This document shows positions 12,209-23,554 of a stretch of 41,360 nt of DNA, piece after piece. Every line of letters begins with the position of its first letter. The first letter of the stretch is position 1. The translations under genes were made by a program, and so were the position numbers. The notes under the pieces were generated by a model, which did not search any database, was not told the origin of the DNA, and saw only the letters and a program-made list of their open reading frames with translations. This DNA comes from a bacterium (GTDB taxonomy: Bacteria > 4484-113): NCBI GenBank assembly GCA_029932365.1, contig JAOZQG010000008.1:1-41360 (forward strand). Direction: 5' to 3'.

Positions 12209-12985
12209 TTATTCAGCGGACTCGCTCTCCTTTGTGGGAGGCTGGCGGCGACCGACGATGGCAGCGATGATAACGATCAGGATGCCCAGCGTGAGCAGTA
12301 TGCTGAAGGCGTGGCCGCTCGGCTCGGCGTCCTGCACTAAAAAGCGCGCCCGGCCCACGAAGAGCGAAACACGCGCCATCACCGTCGAGCCGAAACTGGC
12401 GCCGAAAGCAACCATTAGCACCCAGATACCAATCTTCGCGCCGCCGCCGATGACACCCTTGTGCTCGTAGCTGAAGAAGAAATATATGAGAACCGTGACC
12501 ACGCAGATGAAGAGGATGATGGCGTTAACCAGCGCGGGAACATACTCGCCCGGAGGAGCGCCAATATAGGGCTGCATATTCACCCAGGGGAAGCTGGCAT
12601 AAACCTGCGCTAGTAGGTAGCTGTTGAGCACCGGCCCGATCATGAAACCGGCTCCCCATCCCACCACAAACGCCAGCGCCCACCGGCTCATCCACTCGAT
12701 AGCCGGAATCATCCGCGTTAGCATTATCAGACCCAGAATGCCGGGCACCAAGAACCAAAAGTCCGGACTCCAGGTCACGTCCGGATCTGGGGCGATGTTT
12801 ATAAAAACGCGACCAATAAAGTCGGGCAGAACAATCGTCGCCCATACCAGCCAGACCACAAACGCGTTGGCGATACCCACATAAAGGTGCTCTGCGAAGC
12901 GGAAGAAGGGATTATCCTTGTAGAGGAACGATAGTATCATCAGGGTTAACCCTGCCGCAATCCACGTACCTATGAAAGTAGCCAT
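12209..12985 (-). CDS. Polytopic membrane protein of unknown function (operon gene 4)
   Basis: 258 aa, many hydrophobic segments (MATFIGTWIAAGLTLMILSFLYKDNPFFRFAEHLYVGIANAFVVWLVWA...). Confidence 0.75.
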   Translation of the reverse strand: MATFIGTWIAAGLTLMILSFLYKDNPFFRFAEHLYVGIANAFVVWLVWATIVLPDFIGRVFINIAPDPDVTWSPDFWFLVPGILGLIMLTRMIPAIEWMSRWALAFVVGWGAGFMIGPVLNSYLLAQVYASFPWVNMQPYIGAPPGEYVPALVNAIILFICVVTVLIYFFFSYEHKGVIGGGAKIGIWVLMVAFGASFGSTVMARVSLFVGRARFLVQDAEPSGHAFSILLTLGILIVIIAAIVGRRQPPTKESESAE

Positions 12986-13821
12986 CAGGCACGCTCCCTC
13001 GCTTCCGCGCGCTTCGCCATCACCGCGCGGAAAAAGGCTATGTTGCCGACAATGATGAATATCACGAGCAGAGCGTGCACAATCGACTGGCTGTTCATTC
13101 CGGCCGAGGCGGCGCCTTTCCTCTCTATGAGCTCTTCGTATTCGGCGGCAGCTTTAAGGCCGCCCATAAGGCCGTTTATTTGCCCCGATTGGTAAAACGA
13201 GAAGTAATCGGCGAAGGATACCGCGGTACATCCCGCGCCCATAGGATAGCCTCCAGGGGCTGACCCGTACGCTATCCAGGGCCTAACGGTCTCACCCGCT
13301 GCGAGGTCCACCAGGTACTTGATGTTTCCCTGAAATTTGGGTGTCCGCTCCAGTATGGGCATATCCGCTGTGGACTTGCCGTTGGCGTCGCTGCGGTACA
13401 TTTCCTTTATATCGCTGTTGAGCTGGGAAATTACCGCAGGCAGATTGGGCTTGAAGCCCAGCATAACGTAGTCCTCGCCGTCCACCTTGCCCATATCCCC
13501 GCCCACGTCGTTCAGCGCCATCACGCCCAATCCGGTTCCGGCCGGCCCGAACAAGTTGATGGCGATGACGTAGAGGTCTTTGCTGAAAGCGTGGCGCAAA
13601 ACTGCCAGGAGCATCGGGTACAGCTCTGGCTCGCTTGACGGATCGAAGTCCACTGCCACCACAATGGTGTCGCCCGGCTGCAGGTTTTCTATCGTGTTGT
13701 AAACACCCAGGACTTCTCTCGTCGGGAGGTTCTCCCAGACATCAAAGGGGAAAATCAGCGGCAGGAATACCGCGAAGGCGATCAGCCCGTAGAGAAGGTA
13801 GCGTTCCCAGGAGCGCAGCAC
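12985..13821 (-). CDS. Membrane protein with TM - ~215 aa soluble domain - TM topology (operon gene 3)
   Basis: N-terminal LLYGLIAFAVFLPLIFPF and C-terminal IVHALLVIFIIVGNIAFFRAVM helices; domain NTIENLQPGDTIVVAVDFDPSSEPELYPMLLAVLRHA. TGATG stop/start overlap with the next gene. Confidence 0.75.
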   Translation of the reverse strand: MLRSWERYLLYGLIAFAVFLPLIFPFDVWENLPTREVLGVYNTIENLQPGDTIVVAVDFDPSSEPELYPMLLAVLRHAFSKDLYVIAINLFGPAGTGLGVMALNDVGGDMGKVDGEDYVMLGFKPNLPAVISQLNSDIKEMYRSDANGKSTADMPILERTPKFQGNIKYLVDLAAGETVRPWIAYGSAPGGYPMGAGCTAVSFADYFSFYQSGQINGLMGGLKAAAEYEELIERKGAASAGMNSQSIVHALLVIFIIVGNIAFFRAVMAKRAEARERA

Positions 13822-14534
13822 TAGTCGCCACCTCCCATGTAGGTCTTCTCCACGCCAAAGATTATGCGCACGCTCGTCGCGATAATGCCCAGAGCCACGC
13901 CCAGCACGATGCCGCGAAATCCCGCCGCGTTAGGGACATTCAGCAGCCAGCTCGTCATCTCTTCCATGCGCAAGCTAGACCAAAAGCCTGTTTCCGGCAG
14001 CCACGCAGTTAGTGACGTGCCCAGCGGGACGCGCCCCAGCATCACTATTACCGCAGCAACCAGCAATACCGATGCCTCGAGTGTCTTGGCGCGGAAGCTG
14101 CGATAGGCCGCGCTGGCGATATAGAACGCGAGGATGGAAAACATCGTGGCCTGCATCGGCACCATCATCCAGAAGAACATCCAGTAAAACGCGCCCTTGC
14201 TGTTCTCCAGCCCCCCCCAAGGGTAATAGGCCGCGGAATCCGCCGGCGGCGCTGACCACCAGGGAATCCAGGCAATCATCATCGTGACGAATCCAAGAAT
14301 TAGCACCCAGGAATATCCGTAACCCGGACGCCTTTTACGTATTTTCGTTATATGCTGGCCGAGGATCGAGTTGATGCCGAGAAGCATCGCAAAAGCGCCG
14401 ATTATGGTAACAAATACCTTGAGCCGGTCGCCTATATCCTGCATCGGCGCTGCGGGGATGTAGAAGATGATGAGGACAAACATCCCAAGCACAAACGCGA
14501 TAACAACCGGCAGTTGTCTACGCAAAAACGTCAT
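13821..14534 (-). CDS. Polytopic membrane protein of unknown function (operon gene 2)
   Basis: 237 aa, about 6 predicted TM segments; TAGTG stop/start overlap with gene 3. Confidence 0.75.
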   Translation of the reverse strand: MTFLRRQLPVVIAFVLGMFVLIIFYIPAAPMQDIGDRLKVFVTIIGAFAMLLGINSILGQHITKIRKRRPGYGYSWVLILGFVTMMIAWIPWWSAPPADSAAYYPWGGLENSKGAFYWMFFWMMVPMQATMFSILAFYIASAAYRSFRAKTLEASVLLVAAVIVMLGRVPLGTSLTAWLPETGFWSSLRMEEMTSWLLNVPNAAGFRGIVLGVALGIIATSVRIIFGVEKTYMGGGD

Positions 14535-14536
14535 TG

Positions 14537-15985
14537 TCAGATGTGCTCGTTAAATAGCTGCATGAAATATTCCATTTTCTCGCCCAGCGCACCAAGCGGA
14601 TTGACCGGATCGTACAGAACACCGACGAGTAACGCGATGGAGAATAGGAAACCAAGCAGTAACGCGATGATTATGACCGCCTTGGCCATATCGCTCGCTT
14701 TAATGCTCCCCAGGAGCTTGGGCTCCCGCGAGATATAGGCGCTGGCGGCGTACAGCTCCTCGCCAATCAGCACATAGTCGCAGGTCGTGATAAAAAACGG
14801 GATTTGCACGTTGGAGTCGGTACCGGCAATCTGGATGGCACCGGTGGACTGGCCCACCTCGCCCAGCAGCAGGCTCTCAGCATAGTAGAAGCCGAAAAAG
14901 AAGTTGGCCGCCGGGCGTTCACGTACCATCATCCCATTAACCGCCGCAACGTAGCTGAACTGGTCGTTGGTGATGAAGAATATATTGTCGGAATTGTAAG
15001 CGTCAGGCCGGCCCTCCTCGTAATAAGCCTCGCGCACAGTTTCCTGGCACACGCTCATTACGATAGGGTCAAAGCACGGCACCTTTATCTGGCTCTCATA
15101 GTTGGCCACGTGCCGGGCAACGTGCCCCAGCAGGTTGGTGGCGGCGATGGTGGAGACCGTTGTCATCGGGTCAAGGCCGCACAGGTAGAATATGGGGCGT
15201 CCCATCTCAGTGGCGCGTCCGATGGCTTCGTCCACCGCATCAAGACCGGCGATACGACGAATATAGAAGTCCCGTCGCCGCGCCGTCTCGATAAAGAAGA
15301 GAATCACCACGAGGAATATCGCGGCCATGGCCATGTTGTTGAACTTCGACCAATCGAACCATTGGGTAACCGGCTTCGCATGCAGCACGGGATCGAAAAG
15401 CCGGACAGCCCCGTCGGTGGTAACACCCAGCTTGAAGTACAGCTCATCCCAGTCATACTCGTGCATCACCGGCTCAGGCCCTGCCGCCTTCCCCTCATCC
15501 AGCAGCTTGTTATAGCTTTTAAGCTCCTGCTTATAGGCCCCTTCGGCCGCAGCATCGAACGCGGTAAGATCAATGATGATGAACTGATAGTTTCTAAGCG
15601 ACCGGCTGTAAGGAAAATACTGGAGCCGGTCGCTTATAAAATTCTCGTCCAGACCGATGGACCTGAAGTCGAACGGCAACGGCTCGTAAGGTGCCGACGC
15701 CCCCTCTGAGAAGTGAACCGTGTAGCGTACGTCCTCCGGCGCGCTCGGCGAGCACCGCCACGTAATCACTATGGAGGTGCCATCGTCGTTGGGGAGGTCC
15801 CGCGCTTCTATCTCCGCCGGCGGCTCGAATTCCAGCAGAACGGGCGGTGTAATCGGCGGAGGCTCCCTGTCCGCCGGGGATGCCACTGCAACGTCAGGCT
15901 GTGCGGCAAAAACCGGGGAAGTCAGCGCGTAAGCGGCAAAGAAAACCGCTGCATAAAAGTGTTTTCTCAGTCTCTCCCCGACCAA
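14537..15985 (-). CDS. Signal peptide/FN3-like region/TM/large DUF6754-like domain/TM protein (operon gene 1)
   Basis: 482 aa from TTG start; FN3-like SIVITWRCSPSAPEDVRYTVHFSEG; conserved-looking EAIGRATEMGRPIFYLCG...ANFFFGFYYAESLLLGEVGQSTGAIQIAGT...CDYVLIGEELYAASAYISREPKLLGSIKASDMAK; family name is recalled, not searched. Confidence 0.75.
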   Translation of the reverse strand: MVGERLRKHFYAAVFFAAYALTSPVFAAQPDVAVASPADREPPPITPPVLLEFEPPAEIEARDLPNDDGTSIVITWRCSPSAPEDVRYTVHFSEGASAPYEPLPFDFRSIGLDENFISDRLQYFPYSRSLRNYQFIIIDLTAFDAAAEGAYKQELKSYNKLLDEGKAAGPEPVMHEYDWDELYFKLGVTTDGAVRLFDPVLHAKPVTQWFDWSKFNNMAMAAIFLVVILFFIETARRRDFYIRRIAGLDAVDEAIGRATEMGRPIFYLCGLDPMTTVSTIAATNLLGHVARHVANYESQIKVPCFDPIVMSVCQETVREAYYEEGRPDAYNSDNIFFITNDQFSYVAAVNGMMVRERPAANFFFGFYYAESLLLGEVGQSTGAIQIAGTDSNVQIPFFITTCDYVLIGEELYAASAYISREPKLLGSIKASDMAKAVIIIALLLGFLFSIALLVGVLYDPVNPLGALGEKMEYFMQLFNEHI

Positions 15986-16011
15986 AATACCTCCCGGCGT
16001 GAGGTTGGCTG

Positions 16012-16040
16012 ATTATACGCCCCATACTCTAACGCGTCAA
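16012..16040 (-). promoter_or_regulatory. Sigma70-type promoter of the four-gene membrane operon
   Basis: Minus strand TTGACG-N17-TATAAT, then a short leader with GGGAGG before the TTG start. Confidence 0.8.
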
Positions 16041-16065: not shown

Positions 16066-16635
16066 TCAAACCTCTGGCGTAACCACAACCGCCACCTTTA
16101 GCGCGCCTTCGCCCAGCGCTTCTTCGTCATCGCTCACGTTGAGCTTCAGCACCGCATCATAGTGGCAGTAAGTGCACCAGCCTTCGTCCGTGCTGCAATA
16201 ATAGACGTCCACCGAAACAGGGATCGCCAGCTCGCCGAGAGTGCAATCACTGCCGAGCTTCATTTTGATTCTCGCCGCGACCGTCGTCTGGTCATGACCG
16301 CTTTTGGCCTCCTCGGCGACCAATTCTTTCCGCGTCCAGGAGTATTCCAGCGGCTTTATCGTAACAGGCAGTTTCGCGACCTTCTTTTTATCGAAGCTGA
16401 CCGCAGCCAGCGGATCTTCCCCAAGGTGGAAACCGGGAGGCGCTACAAAGAAAAACTCGAAAGTAACTTCGGCCCCCGGCTTGAAACAGACTTTTCCCTT
16501 TTTAACTGGCTCCGCATTTCGATCGGCAAGGTCAGCAAGCACAGCCGTTCCCAGCAGCGGAATAATCCATATTAGCGCGAGAGCTGCTCCGGCAAGGTGC
16601 AGCAAACGGTTGTTGCATTTCCGGATATCGGTCAT
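16066..16635 (-). CDS. Secreted protein, possibly DsbD alpha-domain-like
   Basis: 189 aa with N-terminal hydrophobic segment; EFFFVAPPGFHLGEDPLAAVSFD and VDVYYCSTDEGWCTYCHYDAVLKLNVS. Confidence 0.6.
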   Translation of the reverse strand: MTDIRKCNNRLLHLAGAALALIWIIPLLGTAVLADLADRNAEPVKKGKVCFKPGAEVTFEFFFVAPPGFHLGEDPLAAVSFDKKKVAKLPVTIKPLEYSWTRKELVAEEAKSGHDQTTVAARIKMKLGSDCTLGELAIPVSVDVYYCSTDEGWCTYCHYDAVLKLNVSDDEEALGEGALKVAVVVTPEV

Positions 16636-16725: not shown

Positions 16726-19700
16726 TTATTCGATTGATGGGCCAGTTTTGACGCGGAGATCACGGTAAATCGACGCGTCGCCGAAATACGCGAACACAGC
16801 TTGATCGGCAGAGAACGGGTCGCACGAGTGCCGGACCGGCACGGCCTGGTCATCGTAGAAGGAGTATACATATAAATCCGTACCCCAACCCTCAACAAAC
16901 GCCACACTATCCGTTGTCCACATACCGCCAGAGTCGTATTCTGTAAGGTAACTGATGAACACCCCGTACTCGGTTCGCCACTGCGACATCGTCAGCGAGG
17001 CATTAGCGTTAGGCGTAAAATCTTCCATGATATAGTCGTCAATCGGGCCGTACCAGCGAAGTATATAGCCCGTACCTGTGCCTTCCAGATCCGCCAGGGT
17101 TACGCAGTAGTGCATATTCTCGTCTAACGTCAAGGTTACTCCCGCGTTCATTCCGCTAGTTGCGGAAAAGCCCTTACTCAGCCCGCTCCTTTCCTCCCAT
17201 ACCGTAAGCTCATTGTCCGGGCTGTCCAGATACGCTGCCACAACAACTTCTCCGTCGTGCCTTACAGCCATATCGTACTGGGTGATAACCGAGGCGCATG
17301 ACATCACCATGGATTGGTCACGCGAGGCCATACCATCCTCTGATTTGATTAGCCAGAGCTGCCAGGGGTTATCGGCCCGCGCAGCGACTATGTTTATGTC
17401 AAGAGCGGAGTTAAGCCCAAGCGCTATCCTGGGTGCAGTCGTAACGCCTCCGCCAACAAACACCGACTGAGGTGCGTCGAACTCACCAAAAGAGCCGCTC
17501 ACGTACATCACGGCATCGCCTTTAAGGTATGCGATATGGAAATCGTCATAGGCGTCAACCGCTATCGTCGCGTGCCCCATAGTCCCGGATGTGGCAGAGT
17601 CGATAAGCTCGTATTCCCACCCAAAGAACTCGAGCGGAGCGAATGGTCCAGGGCCAGATGACGTCGGTCGGCCCATCCACAAAGTCCGCTCGCCGGTTAC
17701 CGGATTAATATCTCCGAAAACTACGTGCGGAACACCGTTTGAGTCGAACACAACGGCGCGGTTAGACAAATCGTATCCCGGTGTAGCGAAACCGTCCGCC
17801 AAGTCATACCACATAACCTCTTCAGCCAAACCGATTAGAGCTACGTCTCTCATATCAGGATCGTATACCGACAGCGCCACAATCTCATAAAGGCTTGTGC
17901 ACGCACCGCCGCGACCAACATGCTCAACCCTGTGGCCGTCCGGGATCGGTTCGGTATCTAAGTCCCATTCGCCAAGCTCGTAGTTAAAGTAGGCCCCGAA
18001 GATGCTGTCCTGTCCCTCGTTGCCAATGGCATACTGCTCGCCCGTGCTTTCGTCAATACACAAATCCAAGACCGCGCCATAATGATCACCCTCGGCGGTA
18101 ATCTCCATCGTGGACCAGCCATCGCCGTAATACGACCAGTATACGCCGCTATCGGTTGACCAGAGAATATAAGGCTCAGCGGATGAATGGCGCCAGCGGA
18201 AGACCGTTTCGGTAACAGGCTCTTCCAAATACTCAATTGTATCACACGCCCAGAGGTCAAGGTCGTTGCTCCCGCAGGCGCGAACCTCCCAGTGTACGCT
18301 TTCGAATTCGCTGTACACGCCAAACGACACGCCAACGTAGTATTCGGTATCCCCGACAGCGCTTGGAGCCCGTATCGGGGGCGGGCCGGGCGGCAGCTGT
18401 TCGGGCTCCTGGCAAACATCGAGCGAGCAGTAATAGCCTACAAGTTCGTTATAGGCACCGTCAGCCGTGTGTACAACATCAGTTGTCCAGCCGCTTGCGC
18501 CATCAAGCATGTAGCCGCACATAACTTCGTCAAGCTCATTGCTCCAGACGAGAATGCGGTCAATCCCGCCAGCGCCGTCGTCGAGCACTACCATATCAAG
18601 ATAGGCGCCGGGATTGTCCGTGGAGCCTTCGCTGTAAACAAGCTCGTCCGTTACGCTGCCGTCATCCCAGGTTCCATAGCGCACTTCACCTTTCCAGCCG
18701 TATGTCTGATATGCGAAGTGAACCACCCCGCTGGAGTCAACAGCCACGCGCGGGAAACGAATCTCATTGTAGCTCGATACAAGCTCATCTATCGCCAGAT
18801 CTCCGTCGTTATTATAAGCCAGGTATAGATACGAGGATCCTCCGGTTGCGTTGGATTGAGTGAAAACTACGTAGAAGTTGCTATATATGCCCAAAGCCAC
18901 ATCGGAGTACTCGCCCATCACGCGGCCCGCGATGATTCCTTCTTCAAAGTCTGCCACCGATGCTGGCAATGTATGATATAAGTAGTGGTTGCTCTCATAG
19001 ATAGTGCCACCGTCGTCAACCACAACATAAACCTCGCCAATACGTGAAGCTCCAGCCGGGATCGTTAGACTCAAAACCTCCCTAGAGAAATACTGCAAGT
19101 CTGTGCCTGCAACCTGAACCCCGTTGAACCACACAACTACATCGTCCTGGCTATCTCCAAAGTTGAAGCCAACAATCTCCACATTTGTCCCTTCGTCGGG
19201 GATGCCCGGCACACCATACCCCGGATATATCTGCTGAATAAACGGCGCACTGGTCGGCAATATTTCGCAGTAATAAGGATTCGTAATTTCGCTCTTTATG
19301 AGGAGCTCAAGCTTGACCAGGCCTTCCGGCACATCAACAGGCAAAGTGGCTATTACGTGATCATCGGACCAGTAGCTGAATATGCCACCATAAGGTATGT
19401 CATCTAGCATTAGCCTGTTCATTCCGTCAGGCGCTCCAAAGTTTGCGCCGAAGATTTCTATCTCGCCGCCAGCTACAGCAGGATCCGGCGTGACTGAGAG
19501 TATATAAGGCGACGTGCAGGTAAAATCGCTAGCGGTTTCCTGCGGCGTGTTGTCGGACACAACCGTAATAGGCCCCACTGTGGCTCCGAGCGGGACATAG
19601 GCCTCTATTTGGGAACTATTCCATGACAGTATGTTTGCCTGAACATTATCTTCGTAGAGCGCGCTGGGGCCTTTGTCATTCTTTACGCCTGTAAAGTATA

Positions 19701-20289
19701 CTGCGTCCGTCTGGTCATTAAACTGGCCGAATTGCTTGCCCGTTATCCTGACGATGGTCCCCACGGGTCCCTGCAAAGGCGAGAATCCGTCTATCGTGAA
19801 GGACGATATCGTTATGCTCTTTTGGCTGGAAAGCCGACTCTCATCCTCACCCAAGTCGACGGCTGTGACACGATAGTAGTATGTCACCCCCACCCGTGCC
19901 GCGAAAAGGTCTTCAAACAGAATTGTCGATACACTTTCATCCGGCTGGGGAATGAGAGCCCCACCATTGACGCGAAGCGCTGGATCGGCCTCTGTTATCG
20001 GTTCAGTGTTACGATAGAGGTAATAACCCGCCACATCCGGCTCGTTAACCCGCCGCCAGTACGCTTTCACTCCCGCAGGAGCGCCCGAGGCGTCCTTCAG
20101 CATAACAAGGTCGAGTCCGTCCGCGAGCGCGTCTGATCCTTCCGTGCTTTGGGTAACTTCAGGCAAGATTACCCCCGATGTACGATGCCCGCTCCCACCA
20201 CATGAAAGAGAGACAATGAGCAGAGCCATCGCGATCAGAACTGCCGCGGTTCTCCGCAAACCGAGATTGCATCCATAACGTCCTTTCAT
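16726..20289 (-). CDS. Very large lipoprotein with FN3-like, about three IPT/TIG domains and a repetitive propeller-like region
   Basis: Lipobox LLIVSLSCGG; SFTIDGFSPLQGPVGTIVRITGKQFG, PYILSVTPDPAVAGGEIEIFGANFG, PFIQQIYPGYGVPG..VEIVGFNFG; repeats such as ATIAVDAYDDFHIAY. Start at ATG 20289 (GGGGTGA SD), not 20319. Confidence 0.8.
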   Translation of the reverse strand: MKGRYGCNLGLRRTAAVLIAMALLIVSLSCGGSGHRTSGVILPEVTQSTEGSDALADGLDLVMLKDASGAPAGVKAYWRRVNEPDVAGYYLYRNTEPITEADPALRVNGGALIPQPDESVSTILFEDLFAARVGVTYYYRVTAVDLGEDESRLSSQKSITISSFTIDGFSPLQGPVGTIVRITGKQFGQFNDQTDAVYFTGVKNDKGPSALYEDNVQANILSWNSSQIEAYVPLGATVGPITVVSDNTPQETASDFTCTSPYILSVTPDPAVAGGEIEIFGANFGAPDGMNRLMLDDIPYGGIFSYWSDDHVIATLPVDVPEGLVKLELLIKSEITNPYYCEILPTSAPFIQQIYPGYGVPGIPDEGTNVEIVGFNFGDSQDDVVVWFNGVQVAGTDLQYFSREVLSLTIPAGASRIGEVYVVVDDGGTIYESNHYLYHTLPASVADFEEGIIAGRVMGEYSDVALGIYSNFYVVFTQSNATGGSSYLYLAYNNDGDLAIDELVSSYNEIRFPRVAVDSSGVVHFAYQTYGWKGEVRYGTWDDGSVTDELVYSEGSTDNPGAYLDMVVLDDGAGGIDRILVWSNELDEVMCGYMLDGASGWTTDVVHTADGAYNELVGYYCSLDVCQEPEQLPPGPPPIRAPSAVGDTEYYVGVSFGVYSEFESVHWEVRACGSNDLDLWACDTIEYLEEPVTETVFRWRHSSAEPYILWSTDSGVYWSYYGDGWSTMEITAEGDHYGAVLDLCIDESTGEQYAIGNEGQDSIFGAYFNYELGEWDLDTEPIPDGHRVEHVGRGGACTSLYEIVALSVYDPDMRDVALIGLAEEVMWYDLADGFATPGYDLSNRAVVFDSNGVPHVVFGDINPVTGERTLWMGRPTSSGPGPFAPLEFFGWEYELIDSATSGTMGHATIAVDAYDDFHIAYLKGDAVMYVSGSFGEFDAPQSVFVGGGVTTAPRIALGLNSALDINIVAARADNPWQLWLIKSEDGMASRDQSMVMSCASVITQYDMAVRHDGEVVVAAYLDSPDNELTVWEERSGLSKGFSATSGMNAGVTLTLDENMHYCVTLADLEGTGTGYILRWYGPIDDYIMEDFTPNANASLTMSQWRTEYGVFISYLTEYDSGGMWTTDSVAFVEGWGTDLYVYSFYDDQAVPVRHSCDPFSADQAVFAYFGDASIYRDLRVKTGPSIE

Positions 20290-20441
20290 GTTTACTTCAC
20301 CCCTACCGGCTTGCCACACAACTTCGTAACGCGGAACCCAGAGGCTAACGAATGACCGTGGAGCCCCTTACGGATCCTGTATTCGAACTCTTTATACACG
20401 TTGAAACGCGACCCTATCCCAGGGCCCTCCAGACATTTTCA

Positions 20442-22559
20442 TTACAGCTGTTCCAGACCATAAAGATCAGGAGTGCTCGGGAATACGACGAATGGCACTC
20501 CGTTGCTTAGCGATCCGTGGTGGAATACCCGTATGGCACCATCGTTTCCTTGCGCTGGTACGGTCGCTGTAATCTGGTTGTCCGTCCAGCTGGTTACTCC
20601 CATGGGAATCGCGCCCAAAAATATTACTGACCCCGGCACATATGCACCGAAGTTCTCACCGCTTATCCGGACCATTTGCCCCCGAGATCCTGATGCAGGC
20701 TCAACGCTTGTTATCACCGGAGGGTCATCTACAAGGAAATAGCCTACATCAAAATGCCATCCGTTGCTCGTCATTCCATCATGTATCACCACTATGTCGC
20801 CCGAAGTGGCATAATGCGGGATCTCGGCTTCGATTGTGTCATCCTGCCACGAGTGGATTATTAAATGCTGGTATCCAAGTGACACTCTATCCCCGGCAAG
20901 CTGCGTCGCGCCGAAATTAAGCCCTAGTATTGTAACAACCGTCCCAACCGGACCCCTGCTCGGGGAAAGCAGAAGAATCATCGGAGGCTGCTTCTCCTGG
21001 CCTGGTTCAATTATGTTGAAGAACATTCCGTCACTGGTATAAGACCTTCCTTGATCTAAGCGTGTGACAAACACATCGCCATCTACTGCAGTATCAGGTA
21101 CAACAACGTCTATGTACGTGTCATGCCAGTCAAGAACCTCGGCCTTAACGTCCGGCGAGAACGTCACGACTTCGCCTTCACTTTGTACGAATCCGAAGTC
21201 AACGCCAAAGACCGTGACCGTCTCACCAACCTCCGCCTGCGGCGGGTATATTGAATAAATCACAGGGATCGGCGCTTCCACTACCACAATATTCATTACC
21301 AACGAATACGCATAGCGCCGAATGCCTTCAAACAACTCAAAAGCTTCCACCCTCGCCGGATATGTGCCCGCTTCATCATAGTGATGTATAAGAACCGGCT
21401 CATCAGCTAGGTTCATGTTTATTCTGGTACCGTCGCCGCAGTCCAGAATAACCGTCGCATTAGGGCCGAGACCGTCTGCTGCTACTTCAAAGGAGACCGT
21501 CATCGGGGCGTAGCCGAAGCTTGGCAGCGCGCTCAGATGAACGCGCCTTAGGTCAACCACGAAGTCGTCGGAAACCTGATCCATCACGGCGTCAGTCAAC
21601 GTTAACGAGCCCGAATAGATTCCCGCTTCCGCGAACTCGTGAATAGGGTCGCGCTCGTCAGTCTCGTAGCCATCAGAAAAATCCCAGTCCCAGACGAATG
21701 GAGGGACGCCTCCATGCACCGTCGGAAGGAAGTGCCGCACCAATGGAGCACCGGCTTCCGTCGGAAACACGTGCACTTCCACTGACTCAAGGGGTAAGTA
21801 CTCACTAGTTGCCTTAATAATCGTAGAGAAGCCTGGAGATACTGAGCCTGCGGCGTCTTCTCCGTGCACGGATACTTCGTATTCCCCAACTTCGTAAAAG
21901 GTGTGGGTTACATCAGATCCGGTGAATTCGCCGGTACCGTCATCGAAATCCCATATATATTCTATCGGCTGTACTCCGCCGAAAGAATATACGTGGAAGT
22001 TCACCGTTAGCGGTATCGGTCCGTCCCCAACATCGGCGAAGCCATAGCATAAAAATGCGTCAGACGGCCGCGCAATCAGTGTATTCTCCGCGACGATGAA
22101 AAATCCAAAGACATTGGTGTCAAAAGAAACGCTCCCGTCATCTTGGACATATCCATCATCGATAGGAATGCAGCGCCGCGAGGCGCCCACACGGAACAGG
22201 AATAAACGCGTTCCCGACGGCAGGTCCTCTTCCGGAACGAGACGGATACGGGCGGGAAGGTCAAATGTGGCGTCTTCCGGCCGTATTACAAACGCCTCGA
22301 TTGCTCGGAAAGAATCAGGCAAATCACTGGGCGCGCGCCCACCAGCCAGCGCCTCCTCAAGGGTTAGTCTCTCAAAGGACACATCGGCCGGACTGATATC
22401 GGCTCCCGGCGGCAACGTAATGCTGAATTCAATCTCTGGAAGAGGAACGCGCTGCACTTCTGCAGGGGTAATCTGCTTCCCTCCCCCGCAGCTGGCAAGC
22501 AGAACGATAACTGTAAGAGCAATCAAGCTCGCAATAATTCTTGGGAAAATCCCTCTCAT
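20442..22559 (-). CDS. Lipoprotein with PKD and IPT/TIG domains
   Basis: MRGIFPRIIASLIALTVIVLLASCGGG; IEYIWDFDDGTGEFTGSDVTHTFYEVGEYEVSV (PKD); PVIYSIYPPQAEVGETVTVFGVDFG, PMILLLSPSRGPVGTVVTILGLNFG, PVITSVEPASGSRGQMVRISGENFG (IPT/TIG). GAGGGGA SD supports start at 22559. Confidence 0.85.
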   Translation of the reverse strand: MRGIFPRIIASLIALTVIVLLASCGGGKQITPAEVQRVPLPEIEFSITLPPGADISPADVSFERLTLEEALAGGRAPSDLPDSFRAIEAFVIRPEDATFDLPARIRLVPEEDLPSGTRLFLFRVGASRRCIPIDDGYVQDDGSVSFDTNVFGFFIVAENTLIARPSDAFLCYGFADVGDGPIPLTVNFHVYSFGGVQPIEYIWDFDDGTGEFTGSDVTHTFYEVGEYEVSVHGEDAAGSVSPGFSTIIKATSEYLPLESVEVHVFPTEAGAPLVRHFLPTVHGGVPPFVWDWDFSDGYETDERDPIHEFAEAGIYSGSLTLTDAVMDQVSDDFVVDLRRVHLSALPSFGYAPMTVSFEVAADGLGPNATVILDCGDGTRINMNLADEPVLIHHYDEAGTYPARVEAFELFEGIRRYAYSLVMNIVVVEAPIPVIYSIYPPQAEVGETVTVFGVDFGFVQSEGEVVTFSPDVKAEVLDWHDTYIDVVVPDTAVDGDVFVTRLDQGRSYTSDGMFFNIIEPGQEKQPPMILLLSPSRGPVGTVVTILGLNFGATQLAGDRVSLGYQHLIIHSWQDDTIEAEIPHYATSGDIVVIHDGMTSNGWHFDVGYFLVDDPPVITSVEPASGSRGQMVRISGENFGAYVPGSVIFLGAIPMGVTSWTDNQITATVPAQGNDGAIRVFHHGSLSNGVPFVVFPSTPDLYGLEQL

Positions 22560-22741
22560 AATTTCCGTCCCCTCGCACGGTTTACGCGAATAAATCTGGA
22601 CACGCCGTACCGGCACCTATATTATACCTTATATAGGCGCACACTACGCAAGCGACATCCCTATTTCTGCGCTAATATCCATCGCAGCTTGGCTCATGTA
22701 AGCCGGTACTTTTGAGAGGAATGCCTACAACTTAGCTCGGG

Positions 22742-23554
22742 TCATTTGAAAAACGCGAGATACCAGTCCATGATCCGCTGTGCGAAAAAGACCGATACTA
22801 TCGCGCCGAGCGCCAGATATGGGCCGAAGGGGATCTGAATCCGCGTCCTATACTTCCGGCGAAAAAGCAGATATACGGCGTAAATCGCGGCCACTATACC
22901 GCCTGCGACAAACGAGAGCATTGCCACAACGATTAGCTGCTGCCAGCCATACACCGCTCCCATACCAACGGCGAGCTTCACATCCCCGATGCCGAATCCG
23001 CCGATTGCCATGGCGAAAATGAGGAAGAATATCGATAGCGCAAACATGCCGATAAGGCTGCTCAGCCACCCCGGGCTGAAACCAGGACGCAGGAATAAGA
23101 CGCCCAGCCAGCCTATGGCGAATAACGCGACGCTAAGCTGGTCGGGGATAATCTGATGCTCAAAGTCTATTACCAAAACCAGGAAGAAAATGCTCACGAC
23201 GGCGATGGCAAACGCGTCGTGAATCGGGTTTACCCGACCGACCGGAACGTTAGTATCTCCCCACAAGCTGCCCAGAAACGGTATCCCCGCGAGTATAAGT
23301 CCTCCGACTAGTTCCACCAGGGGATACCTGATGCTAATAGGGGCGCCGCAGTACCTGCATTTAGCGCGTAGAATTACGTAAGATAACAGCGGGATGTTAT
23401 CGTACCAGCGGATGTGCTTTTTGCAGTGCGGGCAATAACTGCCAGGCGAGACAACGGACAGGTCGCGTGGCAGACGGTAGATGAGAACGTTGAAAAAGCT
23501 GCCGAACGCCAGCCCGAAAACGAAGAGCACGACATACTTGAGGGCCTCCATCAA
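22742..23554 (-). CDS. Prepilin peptidase (A24) / N-methyltransferase
   Basis: GSFFNVLIYRLPRDLSVVSPGSYCPHCKKHIRWYDNIPLLSYVILRAKCRYCGAPIS (two CXXC), VIDFEHQIIPDQLS, GFGIGDVKL. Confidence 0.95.
   Translation of the reverse strand: MMEALKYVVLFVFGLAFGSFFNVLIYRLPRDLSVVSPGSYCPHCKKHIRWYDNIPLLSYVILRAKCRYCGAPISIRYPLVELVGGLILAGIPFLGSLWGDTNVPVGRVNPIHDAFAIAVVSIFFLVLVIDFEHQIIPDQLSVALFAIGWLGVLFLRPGFSPGWLSSLIGMFALSIFFLIFAMAIGGFGIGDVKLAVGMGAVYGWQQLIVVAMLSFVAGGIVAAIYAVYLLFRRKYRTRIQIPFGPYLALGAIVSVFFAQRIMDWYLAFFK

Follow-up and report, generated by a model that had tools for sequence, protein, structure and literature searches.

A conserved membrane module built around a DUF6754 protein and its genomic association with a MutL-family, probably cytosolic partner across diverse bacterial phyla

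Four tightly packed genes, here called A, B, C and D, in a 41,360-nucleotide stretch of bacterial DNA (contig JAOZQG010000008.1 of assembly GCA_029932365.1, positions 1 to 41,360, hereafter the window) would encode the membrane part of a system of seven proteins, G-E-F-A-B-C-D, whose gene order recurs in distant bacterial lineages. The initial annotation had singled out these four genes as a candidate undescribed envelope system, and this is supported by their co-occurrence, their constant order, their duplication as a unit and the fact that no characterised complex is assigned to them. The four-gene unit is indeed a real conserved module, but the system is larger than had been thought, since the partners G, E and F had been overlooked. 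No description of the seven-gene system, of the co-occurrence of its members or of the B, C and D families was found in Pfam, NCBIfam, PADLOC, the PDB or the open-access papers searched. What could be found as already known within this scope is the names DUF6754 and MutL, as families only; the seven-gene system itself is, to this extent, undescribed.

The four genes lie on the minus strand of the window, at 14537-15985 (A, 482 aa, TTG start), 13821-14534 (B, 237 aa), 12985-13821 (C, 278 aa, GTG start) and 12209-12985 (D, 258 aa). They are joined exactly where the first reading of the sequence had placed the junctions: TGA-CA-ATG (+2) between A and B, and one-nucleotide overlaps at TAGTG between B and C and at TGATG between C and D. 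In the gap separating A from an upstream 189-aa ORF that ends at 16066 lie a sigma-70-type promoter, TTGACG-N17-TATAAT (16012-16040, minus strand), and a Shine-Dalgarno sequence, GGGAGG (15990-15995, minus strand), four nucleotides before the TTG start of A; both had been noticed at the outset and both stand. The promoter string has a single exact match in the window and none in 100 shuffles. A looser scan of the region returned seven promoter-like sites against 6.0 expected, the A-B-C-D site scoring 11/12, and because there is no excess of such sites, conservation is the stronger argument. A congener (genome G001, locus L115) retains the two hexamers at their 17-nt distance, together with GGGAGG and the TTG start, and its spacer agrees at only about 8 of 17 positions. 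This conservation of the hexamers beside a diverged spacer speaks for a genuine promoter.

The 189-aa ORF immediately upstream of A (16066-16635, minus strand) encodes an exported Cys-containing protein (YYCSTDEGWCTYC) that is syntenic in the congener and gave no match in a Pfam search; it may resemble the N-terminal domains of DsbD. At higher coordinates lie genes for two large proteins that look like lipoproteins and contain TIG and PKD domains (16726-20319 and 20442-22616, minus strand), and next a prepilin peptidase gene (22742-23554); the congener shows synteny for all of these.

The cytosolic domain of A is a full member of DUF6754 (PF20539; E=5.5e-113, 376.8 bits against a gathering cut-off of 27), as had been suggested from the sequence alone. 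Pfam assigns this family no function, and a search by its name found no paper in the open-access literature covered. The protein consists of a signal peptide, an FN3-like extracytoplasmic domain, a transmembrane (TM) helix at residues 217-235, the alpha/beta DUF6754 domain and a second TM helix at 436-454, so that the originally proposed layout of an exported FN3-like domain and a soluble domain each followed by a TM helix is borne out by profile, fold and hydropathy. The FN3-like N-terminus matches 2uve by profile (E=2.3e-5) and the FN3 domains of DCC by fold (Foldseek probability 1.00). Hydropathy and the positive-inside rule place it outside the cell and assign the DUF6754 domain, flanked by the two helices, to the cytosol. 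The AlphaFold2 (AF2) model of A has a mean pLDDT of 84.7, and of about 97 over the DUF6754 domain. Alignments of relatives reveal 30-40 invariant residues in this domain, and A keeps R243, G256, R257, E260, Q342, E370, E376, Q385, C402, D403 and E410, among others. The FN3 ectodomains differ in length, and A proteins reach about 940-1010 aa in some genomes. A plasmid search with A returned no match.

Concerning the other three proteins, B (about six TM helices) and D (six to seven) are polytopic, and C is made of a TM helix, an extracytoplasmic alpha/beta domain (residues ~30-235) and a second TM helix, according to hydropathy and the positive-inside rule; these topologies agree with those first deduced. 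Profile searches of each ORF, one of the checks first proposed, give a family for A but no convincing Pfam family for B, C or D in any of 43, 47 and 40 relatives, respectively. Alignments locate conserved polar residues within the TM helices of C and D, and His249 and Asn260 in the last TM helix of C are invariant.

The model of C has a pLDDT of 94.5, and in the AF2 models the domains of A and C are both Rossmann-like alpha/beta folds with an identical order of elements. Neither soluble domain has a clear relative in the PDB: Foldseek gave no match at E<=0.001 for A and a single weak one for C, to an eIF2B subunit (E=7e-4, TMq 0.32), and sequence searches of the PDB with A, C and the partner F (see below) matched only the FN3 part of A and, weakly, a KOW motif. 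The eIF2B/ribose-1,5-bisphosphate isomerase type of fold is a repeated weak neighbour of both domains, but with TM-scores of about 0.16-0.35 and no motif in common. In the lack of any close structural relative, no substrate or energy-coupling role can be drawn from structure. The identical order of secondary-structure elements and the overlapping Foldseek neighbours had raised the idea that the two domains are homologous; profile comparison with hhalign gives this a probability of 0.5%, and the likeness stays a structural resemblance.

Scanning named genomes yielded 595 relatives; we retained 80 of them and annotated their loci with profiles. The order A-B-C-D recurs in these loci across about ten phyla, including Nitrospirota, Planctomycetota (anammox bacteria; Brocadiaceae, Scalindua), Latescibacterota, Elusimicrobiota and Gemmatimonadota, as well as Zixibacteriota, Stahlbacteria, Edwardsbacteria, Methylomirabilota (Methylomirabilis) and Poribacteria, either by itself or as G-E-F-A-B-C-D. 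All four homologues therefore co-occur in conserved order far beyond the window, and no library searched places them in a characterised complex, two outcomes on which the initial annotation had made its proposal depend. Tandem double or triple A-B-C-D modules are present at loci L074, L096, L106, L107, L108, L116 and L117. The window genome itself harbours a second full A-B-C-D module on another contig (C52; L003 10997-14884), and in genomes G007 and G009 it is the orthologues of this second module that adjoin G-E-F. Trees built separately for A, B, C and D recover the same clade each time (support 0.995-0.998), grouping the window copy with the same three loci in G001, G007 and G009. This congruence indicates that the four genes were duplicated jointly before the families split and have stayed together since.

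Directly upstream of A, many genomes encode G (~120 aa), E (~610 aa) and F (~375 aa). Two genomes of the window's class have an intact G-E-x-F-A-B-C-D arrangement, x being an extra membrane ORF between E and F, and in the window genome G-E-x-F lies on a separate contig (C138). This intervening ORF (224 aa at L113 1430-2104, minus strand; 210 aa in L133 and 202 aa in L134) has a weak GPDPase_memb match and is seen in the window's class only. Nitrospirota loci often have an added MEMO-family gene (MEMO1/AmmeMemoSam_B-like) downstream of D, as at L060 11544-12791 and in other Nitrospira loci.

Co-occurrence was assessed in 293 genomes, sampled among relatives of the window and mostly one or two per family, of which 83 possess A. 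Nearly all of these also have C (82/83), E (79/83) and F (77/83, p=3e-62), with Fisher p-values of 1e-55 to 2e-69 that ignore phylogeny. Full-length F is present as one copy in each of 77 genomes, which together contain 150 copies of A, up to seven per genome; one GEF set would therefore serve several membrane modules. Five genomes (loci L156, L157, L158, L159 and L160) encode, in addition to stand-alone E and F, E-F fusion ORFs of 949-1034 aa that are devoid of the C-terminal KOW of F, and these fusions are independent evidence for E and F acting together. A-B-C-D occurs in some genomes that have neither E nor F, among them G066 (one contig, 96% complete) and G085, and in G016 F is present and a MutL match absent; these cases speak against E and F being required everywhere. 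None of A-D, E, F or G has a match in the PADLOC defence library. The best reading of these patterns is that E, F and G are cytosolic-side partners forming a shared module that would serve ABCD.

E matches the MutL/GlmL family (PF13941, NF040745, TIGR01319) across the whole model, with ~415-416 bits against a cut-off of 27 for PF13941 MutL (E=3.7e-124 for the L113 protein), and is related to GlmL and to the ornithine-degradation protein Or-4. E also has a weak MreB-like C-terminal match. It differs from this family in about 150 additional C-terminal residues, in falling under all GlmL equivalog and subfamily cut-offs (NF040745, 241 bits against 475 for the L060 homologue), and in being linked to F-A-B-C-D instead of a B12 mutase. 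None of the conserved neighbours (G, F, A-D and H) was recognisable as a B12-dependent mutase, and the open-access literature searched holds nothing relevant on GlmL in Nitrospira or on the GlmL family. The phosphate motifs of ASKHA proteins, DCGSTTTK and DIGGATTD, are preserved in the E consensus, for which reason ATP-dependent cycling would be the likeliest energy source. In one divergent lineage (G068) these motifs are degenerate, so that ATP hydrolysis by E cannot be universal.

The same lineage bears on which membrane is involved. G068, likely a member of the Chloroflexota judging from its PDWLRG repeats, has no detectable Omp85 yet encodes the system, with divergent G-A-B and C-D-E at the ends of two contigs, which favours a function in the cytoplasmic membrane over one in the outer membrane. 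In a lineage without detectable Omp85, the C homologue at L154 9079-11199 (minus strand) bears a long stretch of PDWLRG repeats added at its N-terminus. Simple co-occurrence with Omp85 or PilM is uninformative, both being present in about 95% of the sampled genomes.

E could also be an actin-like platform of the kind formed by PilM and GspL in pili and type II secretion, where a cytosolic actin-like ASKHA protein likewise stands beside membrane proteins; it would then organise ABCD into an envelope-assembly scaffold whose FN3 ectodomains would construct a surface structure or hold it in place. The superfamily of E and its MreB-like match, the variable length of the FN3 ectodomains and the service of many ABCD modules by one GEF would all fit such a role. 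We nevertheless consider it rather unlikely, since E belongs to a different family and has no Pfam match to PilM, genuine PilM homologues are located separately in these genomes (G000:C117), neither pilin, secretin and motor ATPase nor other pilus or secretion genes accompany the system, and the system is present in a lineage without Omp85.

A slightly poorer prospect is that E is a GlmL-like reactivase or maturation chaperone that repairs a membrane-bound client enzyme, ABCD, or loads its cofactor. The strong MutL score and the kinship with GlmL and Or-4 point this way, and the 30-40 invariant residues of the A domain are what an active site would lead one to expect; against it speak the distance of E from the GlmL equivalog cut-off, the lack of a conserved B12-dependent mutase subunit beside E, and the fact that we recognise a cofactor-binding motif in neither A nor C.

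The barrel-sandwich region of F is weakly like RnfC_N and NqrA_N (best E=3.4e-6, most matches below the gathering cut-off; the L113 protein under both cut-offs and a relative, L052, just above that of RnfC_N), and F also matches a KOW motif weakly. Together with the conserved intramembrane polar residues of C and D, this might suggest a redox- or ion-coupled pump of the Rnf/Nqr kind with F standing in for RnfC/NqrA. Such a pump is improbable: the F consensus lacks a conserved cysteine and with it the Fe-S sites of RnfC, neither a flavin nor a quinone subunit nor any other Rnf/Nqr partner is encoded nearby, B and D have no Pfam match to RnfA/D/E or NqrB/D/E, and a middle domain of ~130 residues in F belongs to no family. 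Lipoylation or biotinylation of F was also considered and is doubted, the expected lysine not being invariant and being a proline in the F of the window genome. Finally, that A, B, C and D are just a local operon of unrelated membrane proteins, close spacing being by itself common in operons, is refuted by their order across many phyla, tandem duplications, near-perfect co-occurrence and congruent trees, and has next to no likelihood.

As a whole, the data are best explained by an ABCD membrane core served by the GEF cytosolic module at the cytoplasmic membrane, a model to which we give an even chance. Its direct support consists of the genes, their order, their duplication as a unit, their co-occurrence, the E-F fusions and the occurrence of one GEF for many ABCD. 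E (ASKHA), F (barrel-sandwich/KOW) and the small G would make up a cytosolic module acting on a single ABCD membrane complex or on several. A, B, C and D probably form a physical complex, an assembly that, like its stoichiometry, we infer, with one alpha/beta domain in the cytosol (A), another outside (C) and a variable FN3 ectodomain on A; this placement of the A and C domains relative to the membrane is predicted from sequence and AF2 models. The two domains may be joined via conserved intramembrane polar residues, such as the His and Asn of the last C helix. ATP-dependent cycling of E would then shift ABCD into another state and thereby move a ligand, or relay a state, between the cytosol and the outside. 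It is plausible, if short of an even chance, that E energises ABCD, and we propose only tentatively that the output is transport or transduction.

A DUF6754 gene is present in 83 of the 293 sampled genomes (~28% of a sample of window relatives, not of all bacteria), in most cases together with the whole system and frequently in multiple copies. Among the carriers are nitrite-oxidising nitrifiers and anammox bacteria, which are of global importance, as well as many little-studied phyla. In the resources searched, none of the parts has been given a function that goes further than a family name, yet a system of such conservation and constant gene order probably matters to the cell. GEFABCD might, as a tentative proposal, be a membrane machine of a new class. 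In it, a MutL-family ASKHA protein would act via a barrel-sandwich/KOW adaptor to drive interchangeable membrane modules, which bear alpha/beta domains on both faces and FN3 ectodomains particular to each lineage, so that a single cytosolic module would serve many units with different ligands. The defined list of seven genes makes the system directly testable, and it offers MutL-family proteins a role beyond B12 mutases.
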